Assembly (NCBI RefSeq): GCF_013745115.1
Contig: NZ_CP051151.1
Location: 992,001-1,056,000 of the forward strand
Direction: 5' to 3'
From: Hujiaoplasma nucleasis
Lineage (GTDB): Bacteria; Bacillota_I; Bacilli_A; Izemoplasmatales; Hujiaoplasmataceae
DNA length: 64,000 bases
The notes under the pieces were generated by a model. That model saw only the letters and a list, made by a program, of their open reading frames with translations. It had not been told where the DNA came from and ran no database searches. Each line of letters opens with the position of its first letter. Position 1 is the stretch's first letter. This document shows positions 35,469 through 43,676 of this stretch, piece by piece. A program made the position numbers and the translations under genes.

Positions 35469-37577
35469 TTACAATATATAATAGAAGAAAAAGTATATAA
35501 AGACACCTGATAATACAAACACATAAATAAAAGCATCTGCATAGATTAAACTTTGTTCATAACGACGATTAAGAACATTAACAGTAATCACAAAACGATC
35601 AATAAAACCAACATTATTCAAATCATCATCACTCAATTTTATAAACTCTTCTTCATTGTAAGGGCACTTGTGTCCATAAATTATTTTACATAGGTTTTTC
35701 ATTAACAAGTAAGCAGGATAAAAAAACAAATACTCTATACTTAACCACTTTGGAAAATGCAAGCTTAATAATGAGAACTTCTTTCCTATTAGAAATGCTA
35801 CACTTCCCACGAAGATAATCATTAAAGCCATTATAATATCATAAAATTTAAATACATTTAATGGTTGGATATATGTCTCAATAAAATGACTTGAGTAAGC
35901 AAGATTATTTAATTGAGGTAATATAAATTGTTTAAGAATAAAATTAGGATTCAAACCGATTAATATAATAATTAAACTCATCGATATTAAAGCCAAATCT
36001 AATGATGAGAAATCAAAAGTCAAATCCTTATATTCTTTTTGATTGTCCTTAATGAAAACATAATAGAACATTTTCACTAAATAAGCTACAGTACCTATAC
36101 TTGTTATAATAAATAATATTTCAGCAAGAATAAAAATTTGCGAACCGTGTTGATAAGCCTCAACTATGCCGTGATGTAATATAGTTTTAGATATATATCC
36201 GTTAAACAATGGCATACCAATAACACCCAACATACCTATCACAAAAATTATAGTTGTGACAGGTAATTTCTTCCAAATACCACCTAATTTATACATATTT
36301 AATTCATGGGTGTGATAATAAACAACACCAGCAACCATAAATAACAAAGACTTAAATAAAGCATGATTAATAATATGGTAAATAGCTCCAGTGTATCCCA
36401 TAGCGCCTTCATAACCTAAATAAAGCCCTATGCCTATGCCCATTAAGATATAACCCATTTGCGAAATAGATGAATAAGCTAATAATTTTTTTATATTAGC
36501 TTGTTGTAAAGCAAGAATCATTCCCATTACCATGGTAATTATTCCAGACCATATAATGACATATCCAATATTTTTAGATGTAAGCCATAATGAGTGATCT
36601 ATGGATGAACTATCAGGGAAATAATAAGATGTCACAACTCTAATAATCCCGAAAGCCCCAACTTTTATCATTACCCCAGATAACAAAGCACTGGCTGGAG
36701 TAGGGGCAACTGGATGAGCCCTTGGCAACCAAACATGGACTGGTGCCATACCTGCTTTAATTCCAAAACCAAAGATTATCAAACCAATAATCCAATACTT
36801 AATTGATCCCATTTGACTAAGTTCACTAATGGCTGATTCAAAACTTAAATCTCCAAGATTAAAATACAATAACAAAATAGCAGTCAATATAAGAAAACCA
36901 CCGATAAGACCCATAATTATATAGTTATATCCAGCTTTATAAGACTCATCATTCTGGCCATGAATCACTAGAGTATAAGACGCTATTGTCATAATTTCAA
37001 AAAATAAAAACATAGTTAATAAGTCGCCTGACATCATGGTCCCTAAAACCGAACTATAAGTTAAAGCTAAAAAGAAAAAGAAACGTGTACTATGCAACTC
37101 ATGTTTCATATATTCATGAGCATAGACGATTACATAAAACCAAACAAAGGAAGATATTAATAAAACTGTATAACTTAACATATCTATATGAAAACTTATA
37201 CCCAGTAACAATACATCCTTATATTGATAATCTATGGTCCCCATCAAGACCTTAGGATAAATCAAAATCATGAAAACAATCACAAAAAAGCCCATATAGA
37301 TCAATGCCTTATCTCTTCCATCAACATTTTTATCTCTAAAAATAAGATCAAAGGTAGCTCCAATAACTGGAATAAGAATAATTACAAATATATCAAGTGA
37401 TTGTTTATTTAAAAAATTTAAATACTCTTGATAAAAACGACTTTCAACAAGGAAATTTTGAAAAGAAAACCAATTGCTTAAAAAAGCAATAAAGAAAATT
37501 AAAACCAACAAAGATAATCCAACTAAAATTGAATTAGATTTGACCATTTTATCAAGAATTTTAATTTTTCTTTTCAT
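35469..37577 (-). CDS. ND5-like proton-conducting subunit, second tandem copy
   Basis: The 702-aa protein has about 16 hydrophobic helices and the complex I/Mrp antiporter core: FLFFEIMTIASYTLVIHGQND, FGFGIKAGMAPVHVWLPRAHPVAPTPASALLSG and IYHIINHALFKSLLFM with the conserved Lys and His of the proton path. A C-terminal soluble stretch (KCPYNEEEFIKLSDDDLNNVGFIDRF) precedes a final helix. I start it at the ATG at 37577, eight nt after AGGAG. It is a clear paralogue of the gene just upstream, with core blocks nearly identical. It ends the Mrp/Mbh-like operon. Confidence 0.9.
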   Translation of the reverse strand: MKRKIKILDKMVKSNSILVGLSLLVLIFFIAFLSNWFSFQNFLVESRFYQEYLNFLNKQSLDIFVIILIPVIGATFDLIFRDKNVDGRDKALIYMGFFVIVFMILIYPKVLMGTIDYQYKDVLLLGISFHIDMLSYTVLLISSFVWFYVIVYAHEYMKHELHSTRFFFFLALTYSSVLGTMMSGDLLTMFLFFEIMTIASYTLVIHGQNDESYKAGYNYIIMGLIGGFLILTAILLLYFNLGDLSFESAISELSQMGSIKYWIIGLIIFGFGIKAGMAPVHVWLPRAHPVAPTPASALLSGVMIKVGAFGIIRVVTSYYFPDSSSIDHSLWLTSKNIGYVIIWSGIITMVMGMILALQQANIKKLLAYSSISQMGYILMGIGIGLYLGYEGAMGYTGAIYHIINHALFKSLLFMVAGVVYYHTHELNMYKLGGIWKKLPVTTIIFVIGMLGVIGMPLFNGYISKTILHHGIVEAYQHGSQIFILAEILFIITSIGTVAYLVKMFYYVFIKDNQKEYKDLTFDFSSLDLALISMSLIIILIGLNPNFILKQFILPQLNNLAYSSHFIETYIQPLNVFKFYDIIMALMIIFVGSVAFLIGKKFSLLSLHFPKWLSIEYLFFYPAYLLMKNLCKIIYGHKCPYNEEEFIKLSDDDLNNVGFIDRFVITVNVLNRRYEQSLIYADAFIYVFVLSGVFIYFFFYYIL

Positions 37578-37588
37578 TAAAATCACTC

Positions 37589-39700
37589 CTATAAGAATAT
37601 AAGCATTAAGGCAAAAACTAGGACTAATGATAAGGTATATATAAATGCATCCCCACGAATCATCGAAGATTCATACCTTCTGTTTAGAACATTTGAAGTA
37701 ATAACAAACCTATCAATAAAACCTACTTTCTCAATATCTTCTTCACTTAACTTTTTAAAATCATCTTCATTATATGGACACTTATCTCCATATAGTAACC
37801 TACAAAGATTTTTCATTATTAAGTAAGCAGGTAAAAAGAATATGTATTCTACACTCATCCACTTAGGCAAATGCAAGTGGAATAAATTGAATTTTTTTCC
37901 TACAAAGAAAATAACAAAACCAAATGCTACAATTCCAAATGTAGTTAAAAGGTCCTTGATTTCAAAGACATTAAGTTCAAGAATATAATGATGAATAAAA
38001 TCTGGGTCATAAGTCGTCATATACAACTGTGGTACGATTAATTGATAAATGATAAATTTAGGAAAAACACCAATAAGAATAATTATAAAAGCCATGGCCC
38101 ATAAAGCAATATCATGACTAGAATAATCAAAAGGTATACTTTTATAATCATTATTTGATTTTTTAAAGAATACATAATAGCCCATTTTTATAAAAGAACA
38201 TACAGTACCAGCGCTCACAATAATAAAGATTATCTCAGCATAAACAAATGAAGAATGTCCATAATGATAAGCTTCAGTTAAGCCATGATGTAAAATAGTT
38301 TTAGAAACATAACCATTAAATAAAGGAAAACCACTTATACCCAAAGCCGCCACAACAAAGACTATAGTCGTAAATGGTAATTTCTTCCACAAACCGCCAA
38401 GTTTATACATATTCAACTCTTTTGTATGAAAATAAATCACACCAGCTATCATAAATAATAAAGATTTAAAAAGAGCATGATTTATAATATGATAAAGAGC
38501 TCCTGTATAACCCATAGCCCCTTGATAACCTAAATATAGAGCCACGCCAATGCCAGTCACTATATAACCCATTTGACTGACTGAATGATAGGCTAACATC
38601 TTCTTCATGTTTTCCTGTTGGAGGGCTAGAAAAACTCCTAAGGCCATGGTAATAATTCCGGTCCAAATAATGATAGCTCCAATATTTTCAGCTGTAATCC
38701 ATATTGGATCAGTCACCGATGTTATGGTCTCCTTACTAGGAAAATAATAACTTGAAGCTGTTCTAATAATCCCAAATGCCCCAACCTTAATCATCACACC
38801 AGATAGTAAGGCGCTGGCCGGTGTAGGCGCTACTGGATGGGCCCTTGGTAACCATACATGAACAGGTGCCATCCCAGCTTTTATACCAAAACCAAAAACT
38901 AAAAGCCCCATAACCCAATACTTTAAATTTCCTAATTGAGAAAAAGCATCAATGGCAGATTCAAAATGCAAATCACCAATATTAAAATAAATTAATAATA
39001 ATGCCGTTAAAATTAAAAAACCACCGATAAGCCCCATAATAATATAATTATATCCAGCCTTATAAGATGCATCATTTTGCCCATGAATAACCAACATATA
39101 AGATACAATAGTCATAATCTCAAAAAATAAAAACATAGTCAGTAAATCACCTGACATAATTGCCCCTAAAACAGACCCATATGTTAAAGATAGGAAGAAG
39201 AAAAACCTTGTACTTTTCTCTTCTTTTTTCATATATTCATGAGCATAAATCATCACAAAAAACCAAATAAAGGATGATAATAACAAGACAGAATAACTCA
39301 ACATATCTATTCTAAAACTCATACCCAATAATAATATATTTGGTATTTCAAGTCTTATTAGATCTTCCAAAGCAAGGGGATATATAAAAACCACGATAAT
39401 TAATGTCAACAAACCCAAATAAATAACTGATTTATCCCTATGATCAATTGATGTTTTTGCAACAACCGCTTCTATCACAGCACCAAACATAGGGATAAAA
39501 ACTATAAGTAACGGAATATATTTTATCCACGTTGAAAGCAATAAATTTTGATAAAAATGAGTCGTCGTAAAGGATGACTTTATAGAAAACCAATCACCAG
39601 CATATGCTATAAACAAAAACAATAAGGCAAGAGTAAAAACGACCAATGCTGTGTTGGTCTTGGCCATTTTATCAATAATGTCCATTCTTCTTAATTTCAT
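37589..39700 (-). CDS. ND5-like proton-conducting subunit, first tandem copy
   Basis: The 703-aa protein has the same plan as its downstream paralogue: an N-terminal cytosolic RRMDIIDKMAK, about 16 helices, FLFFEIMTIVSYMLVIHGQND, FGFGIKAGMAPVHVWLPRAHPVAPTPASALLSG and LYHIINHALFKSLLFM, and a soluble tail with KCPYNEDDFKKLSEEDIEKVGFIDRF before a last helix. Both would stand in for the missing N-terminal part of MrpA. It lies between mnhD and the second copy with 11- and 12-nt gaps. The tail is not part of standard NuoL or MrpA as I know them. Confidence 0.9.
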   Translation of the reverse strand: MKLRRMDIIDKMAKTNTALVVFTLALLFLFIAYAGDWFSIKSSFTTTHFYQNLLLSTWIKYIPLLIVFIPMFGAVIEAVVAKTSIDHRDKSVIYLGLLTLIIVVFIYPLALEDLIRLEIPNILLLGMSFRIDMLSYSVLLLSSFIWFFVMIYAHEYMKKEEKSTRFFFFLSLTYGSVLGAIMSGDLLTMFLFFEIMTIVSYMLVIHGQNDASYKAGYNYIIMGLIGGFLILTALLLIYFNIGDLHFESAIDAFSQLGNLKYWVMGLLVFGFGIKAGMAPVHVWLPRAHPVAPTPASALLSGVMIKVGAFGIIRTASSYYFPSKETITSVTDPIWITAENIGAIIIWTGIITMALGVFLALQQENMKKMLAYHSVSQMGYIVTGIGVALYLGYQGAMGYTGALYHIINHALFKSLLFMIAGVIYFHTKELNMYKLGGLWKKLPFTTIVFVVAALGISGFPLFNGYVSKTILHHGLTEAYHYGHSSFVYAEIIFIIVSAGTVCSFIKMGYYVFFKKSNNDYKSIPFDYSSHDIALWAMAFIIILIGVFPKFIIYQLIVPQLYMTTYDPDFIHHYILELNVFEIKDLLTTFGIVAFGFVIFFVGKKFNLFHLHLPKWMSVEYIFFLPAYLIMKNLCRLLYGDKCPYNEDDFKKLSEEDIEKVGFIDRFVITSNVLNRRYESSMIRGDAFIYTLSLVLVFALMLIFL

Positions 39701-39710
39701 GAACTAACCT

Positions 39711-41198
39711 CTAAGAGAAAAATACTTTAGCTGCTGCTTCAATATAAGGCATGATTGTATTAGGGAATAAACCCAACAATAAAATCACAGTCCCTAAAAT
39801 AATCAAAGGAAAAATCATTGTTCTCGGCGTTTTTTCAATCGTTGTCATCCGGTAATGGTATTTCTCATTTCTTAAAAACGCAAGAATGATGATTGGTAAA
39901 TAATAGATGACATTAAGTAAAGAACTAACTATGAGAATTACTAAAAATATAATATAATTATTTTCTAAAACAGCGATACCTAAATTCAATTTCGAAATAA
40001 AACCACTGGTCAATGGTATTCCAATCATACCAAGGGCCGCAATAGAAAATACCCCCATTGCTAGAGGCATAATAAAGCCCATACCATCAAAGTCATTAAC
40101 CTTTCTAGTTTTCTTATAAAAAATGATTTCCCCCACCGATAAGAACAAAGCTGTTTTCATTAAACCATGAGATATTATATGGAAAAAAGCTGCCCTTAAT
40201 CCAAAAAAACTAACCAAAGCTATCCCCAACAAAATATACCCTACTTGAGCTACCGATGAATAACCAAGCATTCTTTTTACATCCTTTTGAGCAATAGCGA
40301 AAACAGAACCCAAGATCATTGCACTCGCCGCAAGAATTAACAATATGACAGGCATATTCATTTCATTAAGGATTTCTACTCCGAAAACATTAAACAAAAC
40401 TTTAACCAAAACCAAGAGATAAACCTTAATCACAATAGCTGAAAGAATAGCTGAAGATGTTGATGGTGCACTTGAATGAGCATCTGGTAACCAAATATGA
40501 AAAGGGAATATTGCTGCTTTAATACCCAATCCAACAACCATAAAGCCTAAGGCGATAATAATGTTCATAGGATAATTTACAAAGGCAACTTCAACTGCTT
40601 CAGCCACCAAAGTAATATTGGTATAACCAGTTGCCATATAAATTAATCCGACACCAAATAAATAAGATAAAGAACCTATCTCATTCATCATTACATATCT
40701 AAAAGCCGAAGTATATGTATCTTTTTTCTTTTTAATACTAATAATTGCACATGTTGTAATCGATAATATTTCAATAAAAACATAAGTATTGAATAAATCG
40801 TTGGTATACAAAATACCAAACATTGAAAGAAGCAAAATAAATAATAATATATAATAACGACCATATTCGGTATCTTCAATCCCATCTGTAGCATCGCCAC
40901 TTGAATAAATATATATGATATCAGCCAAGACAATTACTACAATGGTAAATAAAGCAGAAAAAGGCGTTATTAAAAATTCTATACCATATCTACTTTCATG
41001 ACCCCCAAAGGTATAAGAAATATCTCTAACATTATTCACATACCACAATAAATATCCAGAAGAAATAGTCACAAAAATCAAAACTATAAAACCTAAAATC
41101 AAAGTGATTTTAAAGGGTCTTCTTTTTAATAATGGTATGATCAAAGCCATTAAAATAAACAATATTAAATTTAGAATTGGTAATTGATCAATGTTCAT
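39711..41198 (-). CDS. mnhD: MrpD/MnhD-type antiporter subunit
   Basis: The 495-aa protein has about 14 helices with ND4-like motifs: DLFNTYVFIEILSITTCAIIS, GLGIKAAIFPFHIWLPDAHSSAPSTSSAILSA and FFHIISHGLMKTALFLSVGEI, including the Glu and Lys residues of the ion path. In Mrp complexes MrpD is the second antiporter-like subunit. The ATG at 41198 has GAGGAAAA upstream; a GTG at 41210 is also in frame. It overlaps the mnhC gene. Confidence 0.9.
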   Translation of the reverse strand: MNIDQLPILNLILFILMALIIPLLKRRPFKITLILGFIVLIFVTISSGYLLWYVNNVRDISYTFGGHESRYGIEFLITPFSALFTIVVIVLADIIYIYSSGDATDGIEDTEYGRYYILLFILLLSMFGILYTNDLFNTYVFIEILSITTCAIISIKKKKDTYTSAFRYVMMNEIGSLSYLFGVGLIYMATGYTNITLVAEAVEVAFVNYPMNIIIALGFMVVGLGIKAAIFPFHIWLPDAHSSAPSTSSAILSAIVIKVYLLVLVKVLFNVFGVEILNEMNMPVILLILAASAMILGSVFAIAQKDVKRMLGYSSVAQVGYILLGIALVSFFGLRAAFFHIISHGLMKTALFLSVGEIIFYKKTRKVNDFDGMGFIMPLAMGVFSIAALGMIGIPLTSGFISKLNLGIAVLENNYIIFLVILIVSSLLNVIYYLPIIILAFLRNEKYHYRMTTIEKTPRTMIFPLIILGTVILLLGLFPNTIMPYIEAAAKVFFS

Positions 41199-41571
41199 TG
41201 TTTTCCTCACTTATTAATTCAGATAATTCTCGTTGATCAATGGTATTATAGTTTTCATATATACGAATAACTAAACTCAATGAATAAACGGTAATTGATA
41301 CTACAACAACAATACCAGTTAATATAAACACAGAAGGTAAGGGATTAACAAAAACTGAATTTTCTTGGTTAGCGCCAACTATTGGCACCACTCCACCACT
41401 GACGTTACCTATGGCCACAAAAAACAAAAATACCCCTGTACCCATAATGTTTAATCCCATAATTCTTTTGATTAGGTTGGTGTGTAAAACGACAATTCTT
41501 AATCCTATTAAGAATAAGGCTACAGCACCTATATAATTGACATTGTCTAAAATCATTTCAAATATTTTCAT
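41188..41571 (-). CDS. mnhC: MrpC/MnhC subunit (NuoK-like)
   Basis: The 127-aa protein has three helices in the NuoK/MrpC arrangement: VNYIGAVALFLIGLRIVVLHTNLIKRIMGLNIMGTGVFLFFVAIG and LPSVFILTGIVVVVSITVYSLSLVIRIYE. A loop of about 20 residues (GNVSGGVVPIVGANQENS) lies between helices two and three. It starts at an ATG after GAGGAAAAAA, overlaps mnhB by 4 nt upstream and the mnhD frame downstream. Confidence 0.92.
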   Translation of the reverse strand: MKIFEMILDNVNYIGAVALFLIGLRIVVLHTNLIKRIMGLNIMGTGVFLFFVAIGNVSGGVVPIVGANQENSVFVNPLPSVFILTGIVVVVSITVYSLSLVIRIYENYNTIDQRELSELISEENNEH

Positions 41572-41996
41572 ATTTTTTCCTCATCAATCAGTAAGTTAAA
41601 CAAAGATATCATAGTAGAAGCAACTTTAATACCTATACCAATCATTAATAATGGAATAAAGCCCCCAGAAAGAATTTGGCCAATTTCGCCTTCAAAAAAA
41701 CCTGCTTCTAGGTTAGTTAAAAAATAACCACCAGCAAATATTCCTATAACACCTATAAATACAAAAAACAATATACCGCCACTTTCCGCTATTTCCGAAG
41801 TTTTATGAGAAAACTTTTTCTTACCTTTTTCTCGTCCAAAAACTAAAGTATATAGTATCAATGTCGTTCCAATAATTGCTCCTCCAGCAAAACCACCACC
41901 TGGTGATATATGGCCATTTAAAATGATAAAGATTCCATAAACTTGTGCGAAAGGAATTACTATTTTAGTAATATTTTTAATAATAATATCATTCAT
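41568..41996 (-). CDS. mnhB: MrpB/MnhB-domain subunit
   Basis: The 142-aa protein has four helices and the MnhB signature: FAQVYGIFIILNGHISPGGGFAGGAIIGTTLILYTLVFG, then FIGVIGIFAGGYFLTN and PLLMIGIGIKVASTMISLFNLLI. MrpB helps form the sodium-conducting part of Mrp complexes. It overlaps the small MbhE-like gene upstream by 8 nt and mnhC downstream by 4 nt. Confidence 0.92.
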   Translation of the reverse strand: MNDIIIKNITKIVIPFAQVYGIFIILNGHISPGGGFAGGAIIGTTLILYTLVFGREKGKKKFSHKTSEIAESGGILFFVFIGVIGIFAGGYFLTNLEAGFFEGEIGQILSGGFIPLLMIGIGIKVASTMISLFNLLIDEEKI

Positions 41997-42300
41997 CTAT
42001 CTTCACACCCTTTTTAAGTTCTTTATCATGCTTGGTACTTCGTAAAACAGAACCTACTGCCACAACTGAAGTAAATAGAACGATGGTTTCGCCTAATGTA
42101 TCAAATCCACGATAATCCGCTAAAATACCTGCGATTAAATTTGAAGCATTGGTTTCTTTAGCTCCTTCTTCTATATAATAATCTACAACATCATTATAGG
42201 CTGGAGCATCAACAGATGCTTGAGTTGGCATTTCAAAGATCGCAAAGACTAAAATAATGAATAAAATAATAAATAAGATATTGGCTATCACTTTTTTCAT
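41989..42300 (-). CDS. MbhE-like subunit (MrpA C-terminal segment)
   Basis: The 103-aa protein has an N-terminal helix (ANILFIILFIILVFAIFEMP), an exposed loop and a second helix with ADYRGFDTLGETIVLFTSVVAVGSVLRS. FRG-YDTLGE-like sequences of this kind are typical of MbhE in membrane-bound hydrogenases, equivalent to the extreme C-terminal end of MrpA in classical Mrp. Here it is a separate gene, which points to the archaeal/Thermotoga-like organisation. It overlaps its neighbours by 4 to 8 nt. Confidence 0.85.
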   Translation of the reverse strand: MKKVIANILFIILFIILVFAIFEMPTQASVDAPAYNDVVDYYIEEGAKETNASNLIAGILADYRGFDTLGETIVLFTSVVAVGSVLRSTKHDKELKKGVKIDE

Positions 42301-42536
42301 TTTTCATACCTCTTTGTTTTGCTAATGACTGCGAAAAACAAAATAGATGTTACACCCGCACCAATAGCTGCTTCCGTAATCGCAACATCTGGAGAATTTA
42401 ACAAAAGCCATAATATAGACATCATTAAAGAATATGCTGAAAATAATACAACAGCACCAATTAAGTCCTTAATTTTCCCAATTGCTAAGGCACATACAAT
42501 CATGAAAATGACAATAAGCAAATTTACATAAACCAT
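42297..42536 (-). CDS. MbhD-like DUF4040 subunit
   Basis: The 79-aa protein (MVYVNLLIVIFMIVCALAIGKIKDLIGAVVLFSAYS) has three helices and LLLNSPDVAITEAAIGAGVTSILFF, the DUF4040/MbhD signature equal to a C-terminal part of MrpA and to part of NuoJ-like proteins. The ATG at 42536 begins one nt after the mnhG stop; longer starts (42554 ATG) overlap mnhG and are possible. It overlaps the MbhE-like gene by 4 nt. Confidence 0.85.
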   Translation of the reverse strand: MVYVNLLIVIFMIVCALAIGKIKDLIGAVVLFSAYSLMMSILWLLLNSPDVAITEAAIGAGVTSILFFAVISKTKRYEK

Positions 42537-42537
42537 C

Positions 42538-42855
42538 TTACTCACCATCCTCATCAAAATCTATTTCGGCTTCCATCCGTTTATAAGCTGTTTTTGCAAT
42601 TGCATGTGCAGCTGTTGGATTTGTAATCCATACAAATATCAAAATCAATAAGATATTTGCTGAAATAAATGAGAAACCCTGCCACATAATTAAAGCAGCA
42701 AAAACTAAACCGGCACCCATGGTATCGCATTTTGTTGTTGCATGCATTCTTGTAAAAACATTAGGCATCCTTAATAAACCAACAACACCAACGAAAAAGA
42801 AAAATAGGCCGGCAATTAAAAATAAAATAATGATAATATCTAATACAATTGTCAT
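42538..42855 (-). CDS. mnhG: MrpG/MnhG subunit
   Basis: The 105-aa protein shows the MnhG pattern: a first helix, VGLLRMPNVFTRMHATTKCDTMGAGLVFAALIMW, a second and third helix, and NPTAAHAIAKTAYKRM. The RMP..TRMHA..K motif is diagnostic. It overlaps mnhF as ATGA and is followed at one nt by the MbhD-like gene. Confidence 0.93.
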   Translation of the reverse strand: MTIVLDIIIILFLIAGLFFFFVGVVGLLRMPNVFTRMHATTKCDTMGAGLVFAALIMWQGFSFISANILLILIFVWITNPTAAHAIAKTAYKRMEAEIDFDEDGE

Positions 42856-43121
42856 TTTCCTAATTTTCCTTTCATCAATAATTTTGCTAAACCAATCGTA
42901 GTAATAAAACCTAATAAAGCATAAACTAAAGCAACATCAACAAAAAACTTTTGATTTTGTAAAAGAGCAATCATCACAATAATCGTTGTTACTTTTGTTG
43001 CTATCATATTGATAGCTACCATTCTATCTTCAACGGTTGGTCCTACCACAGCCCTATATAAACCTACAAAAGTTAAAATCACCAATATGATTGTAGCAAT
43101 TAATAAAGCAGTCTCAATCAT
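42852..43121 (-). CDS. mnhF: MrpF/MnhF subunit
   Basis: The 89-aa protein has three helices with the MnhF motif RAVVGPTVEDRMVAINMIATKVTTIIVMIAL and the end DVALVYALLGFITTIGLAKLL. It overlaps mnhE by 8 nt upstream and mnhG by 4 nt downstream. Confidence 0.94.
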   Translation of the reverse strand: MIETALLIATIILVILTFVGLYRAVVGPTVEDRMVAINMIATKVTTIIVMIALLQNQKFFVDVALVYALLGFITTIGLAKLLMKGKLGK

Positions 43122-43614
43122 GATTCTTCACCCCTTCTAAGTCTAAAAAGGCTTTTTCTAAACTAGACCCTTCTAAGTCTCTTACATATTTTTTTAATAA
43201 ACCATGAACTACTATTTCATCTTTGTTCATATCAACTGTTAAAGTACCAGGTGTTAAAGTAATCGCATTAGCATATAGACTTTGGTTTAATTCTTTCTTC
43301 AGCTTTTGCTTGATGGTAACGAATCCAGGATCAATAGGCATTTTTTTACTTAATACAATTTTAGCAACATGAATATTAGATAAAATAATATTATAAATCA
43401 AAATAAAAATCAGAACAAAAAAACGAATAATTGTTCTGATTGTAAGTTTTGTTATTGCCTGCTGATTAAAGACTAAATCATAGTTAAAAAAAACCACCAT
43501 TAAAGACGCAAGAAGACCAATAATAGCGACCTCTAAAGAAAATTCAAAGGATAAAATAAACCAAAAAACAAAGAGTAAAACAAATAAAACAAAAGCCCCA
43601 TACCTTTTCTTCAA
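43114..43614 (-). CDS. mnhE: MrpE/MnhE subunit
   Basis: The 166-aa protein has N-terminal helices and the MnhE cytosolic domain: SNIHVAKIVLSKKMPIDPGFVTIKQKLKKE, ANAITLTPGTLTVDMNKDEIVVHGL. It is the first gene of the ten-gene operon. The start is a TTG at 43614 with AGGAAGG about 11 nt upstream and no better ATG. The order E-F-G-MbhD-MbhE-B-C-D differs from the classical ABCDEFG order. Confidence 0.92.
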   Translation of the reverse strand: MKKRYGAFVLFVLLFVFWFILSFEFSLEVAIIGLLASLMVVFFNYDLVFNQQAITKLTIRTIIRFFVLIFILIYNIILSNIHVAKIVLSKKMPIDPGFVTIKQKLKKELNQSLYANAITLTPGTLTVDMNKDEIVVHGLLKKYVRDLEGSSLEKAFLDLEGVKNHD

Positions 43615-43646: not shown

Positions 43647-43676
43647 AGTATATCTAAAAATAACCCTAAGTGTCAA
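43647..43676 (-). promoter_or_regulatory. Promoter of the Mrp/Mbh-like operon
   Basis: On the minus strand TTGACA, an 18-nt spacer and TATACT lie about 35 nt before the TTG start of mnhE. Confidence 0.75.

Follow-up and report, generated by a model that had tools for sequence, protein, structure and literature searches.

The genome of Hujiaoplasma nucleasis, a wall-less anaerobe of the order Izemoplasmatales, carries ten tightly packed open reading frames (ORFs) on the minus strand (43614-35469 of the window, i.e., the whole 64,000-nucleotide stretch of DNA analyzed here) in the order E-F-G-MbhD-MbhE-B-C-D-H1-H2, and its gene content identifies this operon as a group 3 Mrp (CPA3) system of the stand-alone type. 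We consider it moderately probable that its products form a stand-alone group 3 electrogenic cation/proton antiporter in which D, H1, and H2 would lie in a row, with H2 as a third proton unit. The number of proton-channel subunits reached three through a recent duplication of one of them: on phylogenetic grounds, H1 and H2 are a young, lineage-specific tandem duplication, within the Izemoplasmatales, of the HL-bearing subunit. The class of antiporter is a known one, and this operon would be of interest chiefly as part of a naturally occurring series graded by the number of antiporter-like modules.

The host genome is a single contig of 1.81 Mb, about 96% complete; the homologues of the operon proteins bear Izemoplasmatales or Acholeplasmataceae names, and the genes are read through with the standard bacterial code. 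The earlier note had described two ND5-like genes of about 700 residues following E-F-G-MbhD-MbhE-B-C-D, and this description holds, as all ten ORFs lie at that place and exceed the Pfam gathering cut-offs (E = 1e-10 to 1e-63). On the minus strand, the operon begins with an MrpE/MnhE-like subunit of 166 aa (43114..43614; MNHE, PF01899, E = 6.6e-31), an MrpF-like subunit of 89 aa (42852..43121; MrpF_PhaF, PF04066, E = 3e-17) and an MrpG-like subunit of 105 aa (42538..42855; PhaG_MnhG, PF03334, E = 2.4e-28). These are followed by an MbhD-like (DUF4040) subunit, which is a homologue of part of the MrpA C-terminus (42297..42557; MbhD, PF13244, E = 3.7e-21), an MbhE-like subunit (41989..42300; MbhE, PF20501, E = 3.7e-10), an MrpB-like subunit of 142 aa (41568..41996; MnhB, PF04039, E = 1.9e-28), and an MrpC-like subunit of 127 aa (41188..41571; Oxidored_q2, PF00420, E = 1.7e-19). 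Subunit D, a 499-aa antiporter-like protein of the MrpD/MbsH/MbhH kind devoid of a C-terminal extension (39711..41210; Proton_antipo_M, PF00361, E = 1.9e-59), finds its best PDB matches in MbsH (6u8y_H) and MbhH (6cfw_H). The last two genes encode the ND5-like antiporter-like subunits H1 (703 aa, 37589..39700) and H2 (705 aa, 35469..37586), each of which matches both Proton_antipo_M and Proton_antipo_N. Neighboring genes overlap by 4-23 bp through D, and gaps of 10 and 2 bp precede H1 and H2, respectively. A gene for an Fe-alcohol dehydrogenase ends 75 bp upstream of the operon, and on the downstream side 84 bp separate the operon from the start of a MatE transporter gene. The 75-bp gap ahead of mrpE contains a candidate operon promoter, TTGACA-18-TATACT (43647..43676, minus strand), identified only by its 11/12 match to the consensus, such sites being overall no more numerous than expected by chance. 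The gene order, including both H genes, is identical in a congener (G001), where alcohol dehydrogenase and MATE/LplA genes likewise lie upstream and downstream; since this order is kept at 83% identity (H1) and with tight spacing, the arrangement is not due to chance.

Group 3 Mrp systems are defined by the absence of a fused mrpA gene and by the presence of mrpD-like genes, sometimes several (PMC8415708). Consistent with this definition, the operon combines B, C, D, E, F, and G with MbhD and MbhE equivalents of the MrpA C-terminus and several mrpD-like genes, lacks a fused mrpA gene and a hydrophilic redox module, and codes for antiporter-like subunits that keep the proton-channel Glu and Lys residues. 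It contains neither the NuoB/MbhJ-type small subunit nor the NuoD/MbhL-type large subunit of MBH, MBS, and Mbx, and H1 and H2 are not fused to MbhD/MbhE-like TM17-21 and fall outside the MrpA/NuoL clade, contrary to what groups 1 and 2 of Mrp would require. The closeness in sequence of the MbhD, MbhE, and D-like subunits to parts of MBH/MBS, together with the occurrence of a full Mbx/Mbs-like redox cluster in other Izemoplasmatales, could still suggest that the operon is the membrane arm of an MBH/MBS/Mbx-like redox-driven pump whose soluble subunits are encoded elsewhere. However, this explanation is largely refuted and we hold it to be highly improbable. No match to PF01058 (NuoB/MbhJ) or PF00346 (49-kDa/NiFe-type) was found genome-wide, although control genomes with such redox complexes do yield them, no NuoH-type anchor subunit is encoded in the operon, and D, H1, and H2 are the only three PF00361 proteins of the whole genome. 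With only three antiporter-like proteins and no NuoB/MbhJ or 49-kDa/NiFe-type subunit, a redox pump is very unlikely, and a hidden redox module is rejected on the basis of the genome-wide searches. The earlier note was thus right in reporting no [NiFe]-hydrogenase, sulfane reductase, or soluble electron-transfer genes (none is found in the operon or adjoining it) and in preferring an ion antiporter to a redox pump.

The same conclusion extends to relatives. Among 41 genomes, ten have matches to the operon (G000, G001, G002, G008, G009, G021, G023, G034, G036, and G039, the match in G023 being a fragment of about 220 aa of H only), and none of these ten contains PF01058, whereas all ten genomes that do contain it lack the operon. 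Under independence, such a lack of overlap has a probability of about 0.04 by a hand calculation that ignores relatedness, so that the strong statement is the absence of PF01058 from operon carriers and not mutual exclusion. The genes flanking the operon in relatives, which the earlier note wanted inspected for hydrophilic subunits, include no hydrogenase or ferredoxin module as a conserved partner. Ferredoxin-like ORFs near some related operons turned out to be a GltD-like pyridine-nucleotide flavoprotein (L047), an aldo/keto reductase (L035), and, behind one Coriobacteriia operon (L107), a 4Fe-4S protein, with no conserved partner among such ORFs. Two genomes harbor, instead of the operon, a complete Mbx/Mbs-like cluster encoding homologues of NuoH, B, C, D, and I (L045 in G028, L046 in G004). 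In both (L045:4468-15187 and L046:311-11052), a protein of 660-690 aa appears to join the NuoI-like ferredoxin domain to an NfnL/GltD-like flavoprotein.

Several known systems resemble the operon in part. The Mrp of P. furiosus, MrpEFGBB'CD, is likewise stand-alone, has no canonical fused mrpA and has split MbhD/MbhE/B domains; it uses Na+, and it has one antiporter-like subunit, whereas here two HL-bearing ND5-like subunits accompany D (PMC8415708). The cyanobacterial mrpCD1D2EFGAB operon also carries extra antiporter-like genes and was shown to encode a Na+/H+ antiporter, but its duplicated gene is mrpD (PMC5703873). The group 1/2 MrpA-G complexes of Bacillus, Anoxybacillus, and Dietzia share the same subunit folds, TM1-16 of MrpA being the structural counterpart of H; unlike here, MrpA is one fused protein, a single H-type subunit is present, and MrpF Asp35 and MrpC His37/His40 are found. 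MBS and MBH of P. furiosus have the same small subunits, and the D + H combination resembles MbsH + MbsH' with TM15-HL-TM16, but the operon has no NiFe, sulfane-reductase, or anchor subunits and has one additional H copy. A further related arrangement is E-F-G-MbhD-MbhE-B-C-D-H-H' of Alkaliphilus, Tindallia, and Proteiniclasticum (isolates and MAGs), with the same order, three antiporter-like subunits, and no redox genes; there, however, H/H', also found in Erysipelotrichia, stem from an older, separate duplication, and MrpC keeps Glu44 where most Izemoplasmatales have Gly. Mrp is not mentioned in the Izemoplasma papers examined, and a paper on Natranaerobius antiporters tested single-gene antiporters and no operon of the E-F-G-MbhD-MbhE-B-C-D-H1-H2 kind.

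The residues of the putative cation path were compared with those of solved Mrp structures, i.e., MrpF D29/D35, MrpC H37/H40, MrpA E706/D792/E796, and MrpD E137. The following are kept: E62 of MbhD (the equivalent of MBH E69, by alignment to the MbhD of MBH and MBS), D67/E71 of MbhE (the equivalents of MrpA D792/E796, by alignment to 6cfw_E and the MrpA C-terminus), E147 of D, and D32 of MrpF (equivalent to Asp29). The Asp35 equivalent of MrpF is N38, as judged from an alignment to 6z16_F, 7qru_F, 6cfw_B, and 6u8y_B and from a clade survey; Asn occupies this position in nearly all stand-alone group 3 relatives surveyed and Asp in Mrp, MBH, MBS, and local Mbx-like clusters. A residue termed invariably conserved in canonical Mrp is thus Asn in nearly all of the stand-alone group 3 operons surveyed. 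The A. flavithermus complex becomes inactive when MrpF Asp35 is replaced by Leu; in B. subtilis, Glu or Asn in its place proved less detrimental (PMC7419157). In MrpC, aligned to MbsG, MbhG, and MrpC, the canonical S36/H37/H40 positions are G44/T45/F48, leaving the subunit without an ionizable residue at the coupling site; position 44 is Gly in most Izemoplasmatales (Ala or Ser in a few), Asp in MBH, and Glu in MBS and most clostridial relatives. Given the Asn of MrpF and an MrpC with neither the His pair nor the acidic residue, cation specificity or coupling could differ in this complex; these changes are compatible with Na+/H+ antiport, and the ion could be another. The MrpC His pair is incomplete in MBH and MBS as well, so that the cation-path residues are not strict criteria for group 3.

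All three antiporter-like subunits retain the residues of the proton channel. GluTM5, LysTM7, the TM8 Lys, a further conserved Lys, and LysTM12 correspond to E147, K231, K262, K312, and K352 in D, to E194, K274, K305, K366, and K412 in H1, and to E197, K277, K308, K366, and K412 in H2. The earlier note would have taken the loss of conserved Lys, Glu, or His residues from one ND5-like copy as evidence against its reading; both copies keep the whole Glu/Lys/His set. LysTM12 is a lysine in D, H1, and H2 alike, and the middle subunit of complex I, NuoM/Nqo13, has Glu at this position, a feature proposed to allow anti-phase working (PMC7419157). H1 and H2, which are 62% identical over 700 aligned residues, both have an extra N-terminal TM and the C-terminal clamp region (TM15-amphipathic helix-TM16) that is normally the mark of a single terminal subunit; 156 and 158 residues follow their TM14, compared with 16 in D. 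The AF2 model of H2 (mean pLDDT 77.5, pTM 0.81) matches the folds of MrpA, MrpD, and NuoL (VIA Z about 40-42) and places the extra N-terminal helix at 13-36, TM15 at 581-603, the last TM at 677-704, and a low-confidence amphipathic stretch at 617-673; because pLDDT is only about 47-66 along the C-terminal stretch, the length of HL is not used as evidence.

In the mechanism that we propose, the E-F-G-MbhD-MbhE-B-C cation module would be flanked on one side by D, H1, and H2 in line, and the TM15-HL-TM16 of each H would hold it to its inner neighbor. Each of the three would conduct protons, and charge movement along the lysine/glutamate axis would be coupled to a single cation path where MbhD, MrpC, and MrpD meet, with H2, the faster-evolving young copy, forming the outermost of three proton-conducting units. 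A clamp region on both H copies makes a D-H1-H2 series possible as well as alternative D + H1 and D + H2 complexes, which would each contain two antiporter-like subunits and differ in pH range, ion affinity, or regulation. We regard such interchangeable terminal subunits as rather unlikely, and take them seriously mainly because two subunits here have the long C-terminus while in many arrays only the last one does, the added internal subunits of many other group 3 operons ending 15-20 residues after TM14 and lacking TM15-HL-TM16, a feature by which the one terminal subunit is recognized in MBS, Mrp, and complex I. That H1 and H2 diverge most in their N-terminal 100 residues (33-38% identity) and in residues 551-600 (38%) and least in the core would also suit isoforms, as would the fact that one H suffices for most relatives. 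On the other hand, the two genes lie side by side in one operon and nothing points to their being controlled separately, three genomes (G000, G001, and G008) have retained both copies, and an older pair, H (673-739 aa) and H' (611-624 aa), both with the clamp, is maintained independently in Clostridia and Erysipelotrichia; two long C-termini are thus found in the clostridial H/H' type as well as in this operon.

The phylogeny of the ND5-like proteins, an analysis that the earlier note had proposed, resolves the duplication, gives no support to a kinship with MrpA or MbsH', and is weak at its deep nodes. H1 and H2 group with other group 3 H proteins (support 100/99), outside the MrpA + NuoL + NdhF clade (100/99) and apart from MbsH', MrpD, NuoM, and MbhH, while D groups with the D proteins of other group 3 operons, beside MbhH. 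Forcing H into a clade with MrpA/NuoL (AU p 0.071) or with MbsH' (AU p 0.067) is not firmly rejected, so H as an MrpA or MbsH' orthologue lacks support from the tree without being formally dismissed. The notion of a split MrpA, an interpretation of the earlier note, lacks support, even if a common clade is not firmly rejected (AU p 0.071); group 3/MBH-type operons normally have MbhD and MbhE as separate genes. Likewise, the parallel drawn between the duplicated subunits and MbsH/MbsH' fits D and H instead, as MbsH is D-like, MbsH' has TM15-HL-TM16, and H1/H2 are a later duplication. This duplication arose within an Izemoplasmatales clade of eight sequences (100), in which the H2 proteins of this operon, G001, and G008 come together (100); most Izemoplasmatales have one long H. 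H2 is not an orthologue of the clostridial H' (rejected, AU p 1.2e-7), so the third antiporter-like subunit apparently arose by a second, independent duplication. Because the pair occurs in only 3 of the 41 genomes and the H2 branch is longer than that of H1, the extra copy might be a recent near-neutral duplicate, reflecting dosage or ongoing decay and having no distinct role; yet we find this improbable, as H2 is full length, keeps all channel residues, shares 75-77% identity with its G001 orthologue, and has its pair maintained in G008 too.

The cellular context points toward sodium. The genome encodes Rnf subunits at two loci and has no complex I or Ech-type pump. The c subunit of its F-type ATP synthase is closest to the c-rings of 4bem, 3zk1, and 1yce, the last of which is labeled sodium ion specific and the first two of which we take to be Na+ c-rings. 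The pyrophosphatase is closest to the K+-stimulated Na+ pump 4av3, the Na+ and H+ scores being close (583 vs. 567 bits). Alongside its F-type ATP synthase, whose c subunit is of the Na+ type, the genome also encodes a V-type ATPase K subunit (L127 and L128). Taken by their sequences, Rnf, the c subunit, the V-type K subunit, and the pyrophosphatase suggest a Na+-based economy, and given Rnf, the Na+-type c subunit, a Na+-PPase-like pump, and the lack of complex I and Ech, the complex would most likely interconvert Na+ and H+ gradients for pH homeostasis. Its direction, the least certain step, is probably Na+ in and H+ out during fermentation; the stand-alone Mrp of P. furiosus was inferred to import Na+ while expelling H+ upon acidification (PMC8415708).

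The same operon, again devoid of redox subunits, recurs among Izemoplasmatales and also in Erysipelotrichaceae, Alkaliphilus, Tindallia, Proteiniclasticum, and further taxa, and other group 3 operons also carry extra antiporter-like genes without redox partners. These arrays include D+H (G021, G036, L047, L049, and L051), D+H+H' (Alkaliphilus, Tindallia, Proteiniclasticum, and Erysipelotrichaceae), D+H2+H1 (L070, L071, L074, and L118), D+H2+H2+H1 (Coriobacteriia and L106), and longer forms (L083, L088, and L116), where "H2" is an HMM label for short internal subunits and is distinct from the H2 of this operon. It is conceivable, though we hold it only tentatively and find it somewhat doubtful, that D, H1, and H2 act in series in one complex as chainable modules, the H+:cation ratio shifting with their number, and that the complex, its cation site having neither MrpF Asp35 nor an ionizable MrpC residue, is a high-ratio Na+-driven proton extruder. 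If so, Firmicutes and Actinobacteria would hold a natural series of 2, 3, 4, or more modules in which the operon is one step. The proton contribution of the individual antiporter-like subunits of Mrp, MBH, MBS, and complex I is a matter of debate, and stand-alone Mrp operons that differ mainly in subunit number (D+H; D+H1+H2; D+H2+H2+H1; longer) would make this contribution measurable with no redox chemistry involved. The convergent gain of a second HL-bearing subunit would, in addition, test the rule of one lateral helix per complex that grows with the modules.

Other array types were encountered during this survey. L038-L044 (G007, G020, G032, G034, G036, G038, and G040) represent another stand-alone type, EFG-MbhD-B(fused MbhE)-C plus one ND5-like protein of 533-547 aa, which in G034 and G036 occurs together with the type of operon described above. 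G023 contains inside a contig a lone C-terminal H fragment of about 213 aa (L033:4457-5098), either a decaying remnant or an assembly fault. Four antiporter-like subunits are encoded at L091, L094, L095, L097, L098, L101-L103, and L106-L108 (Coriobacteriia and a Schekmanbacteria MAG), the last of them reaching 842-976 aa, of which about 340-445 follow TM14. The model of a Coriobacteriia terminal H (pLDDT 58.9) is too poor for the lateral helix to be read, and the L094 H1 model displays an extra helical domain at 615-755. Finally, at clostridial loci (L083, L088, L105, L085, and L116), Mrp-type clusters contain or adjoin as many as five or six ND5-like genes.
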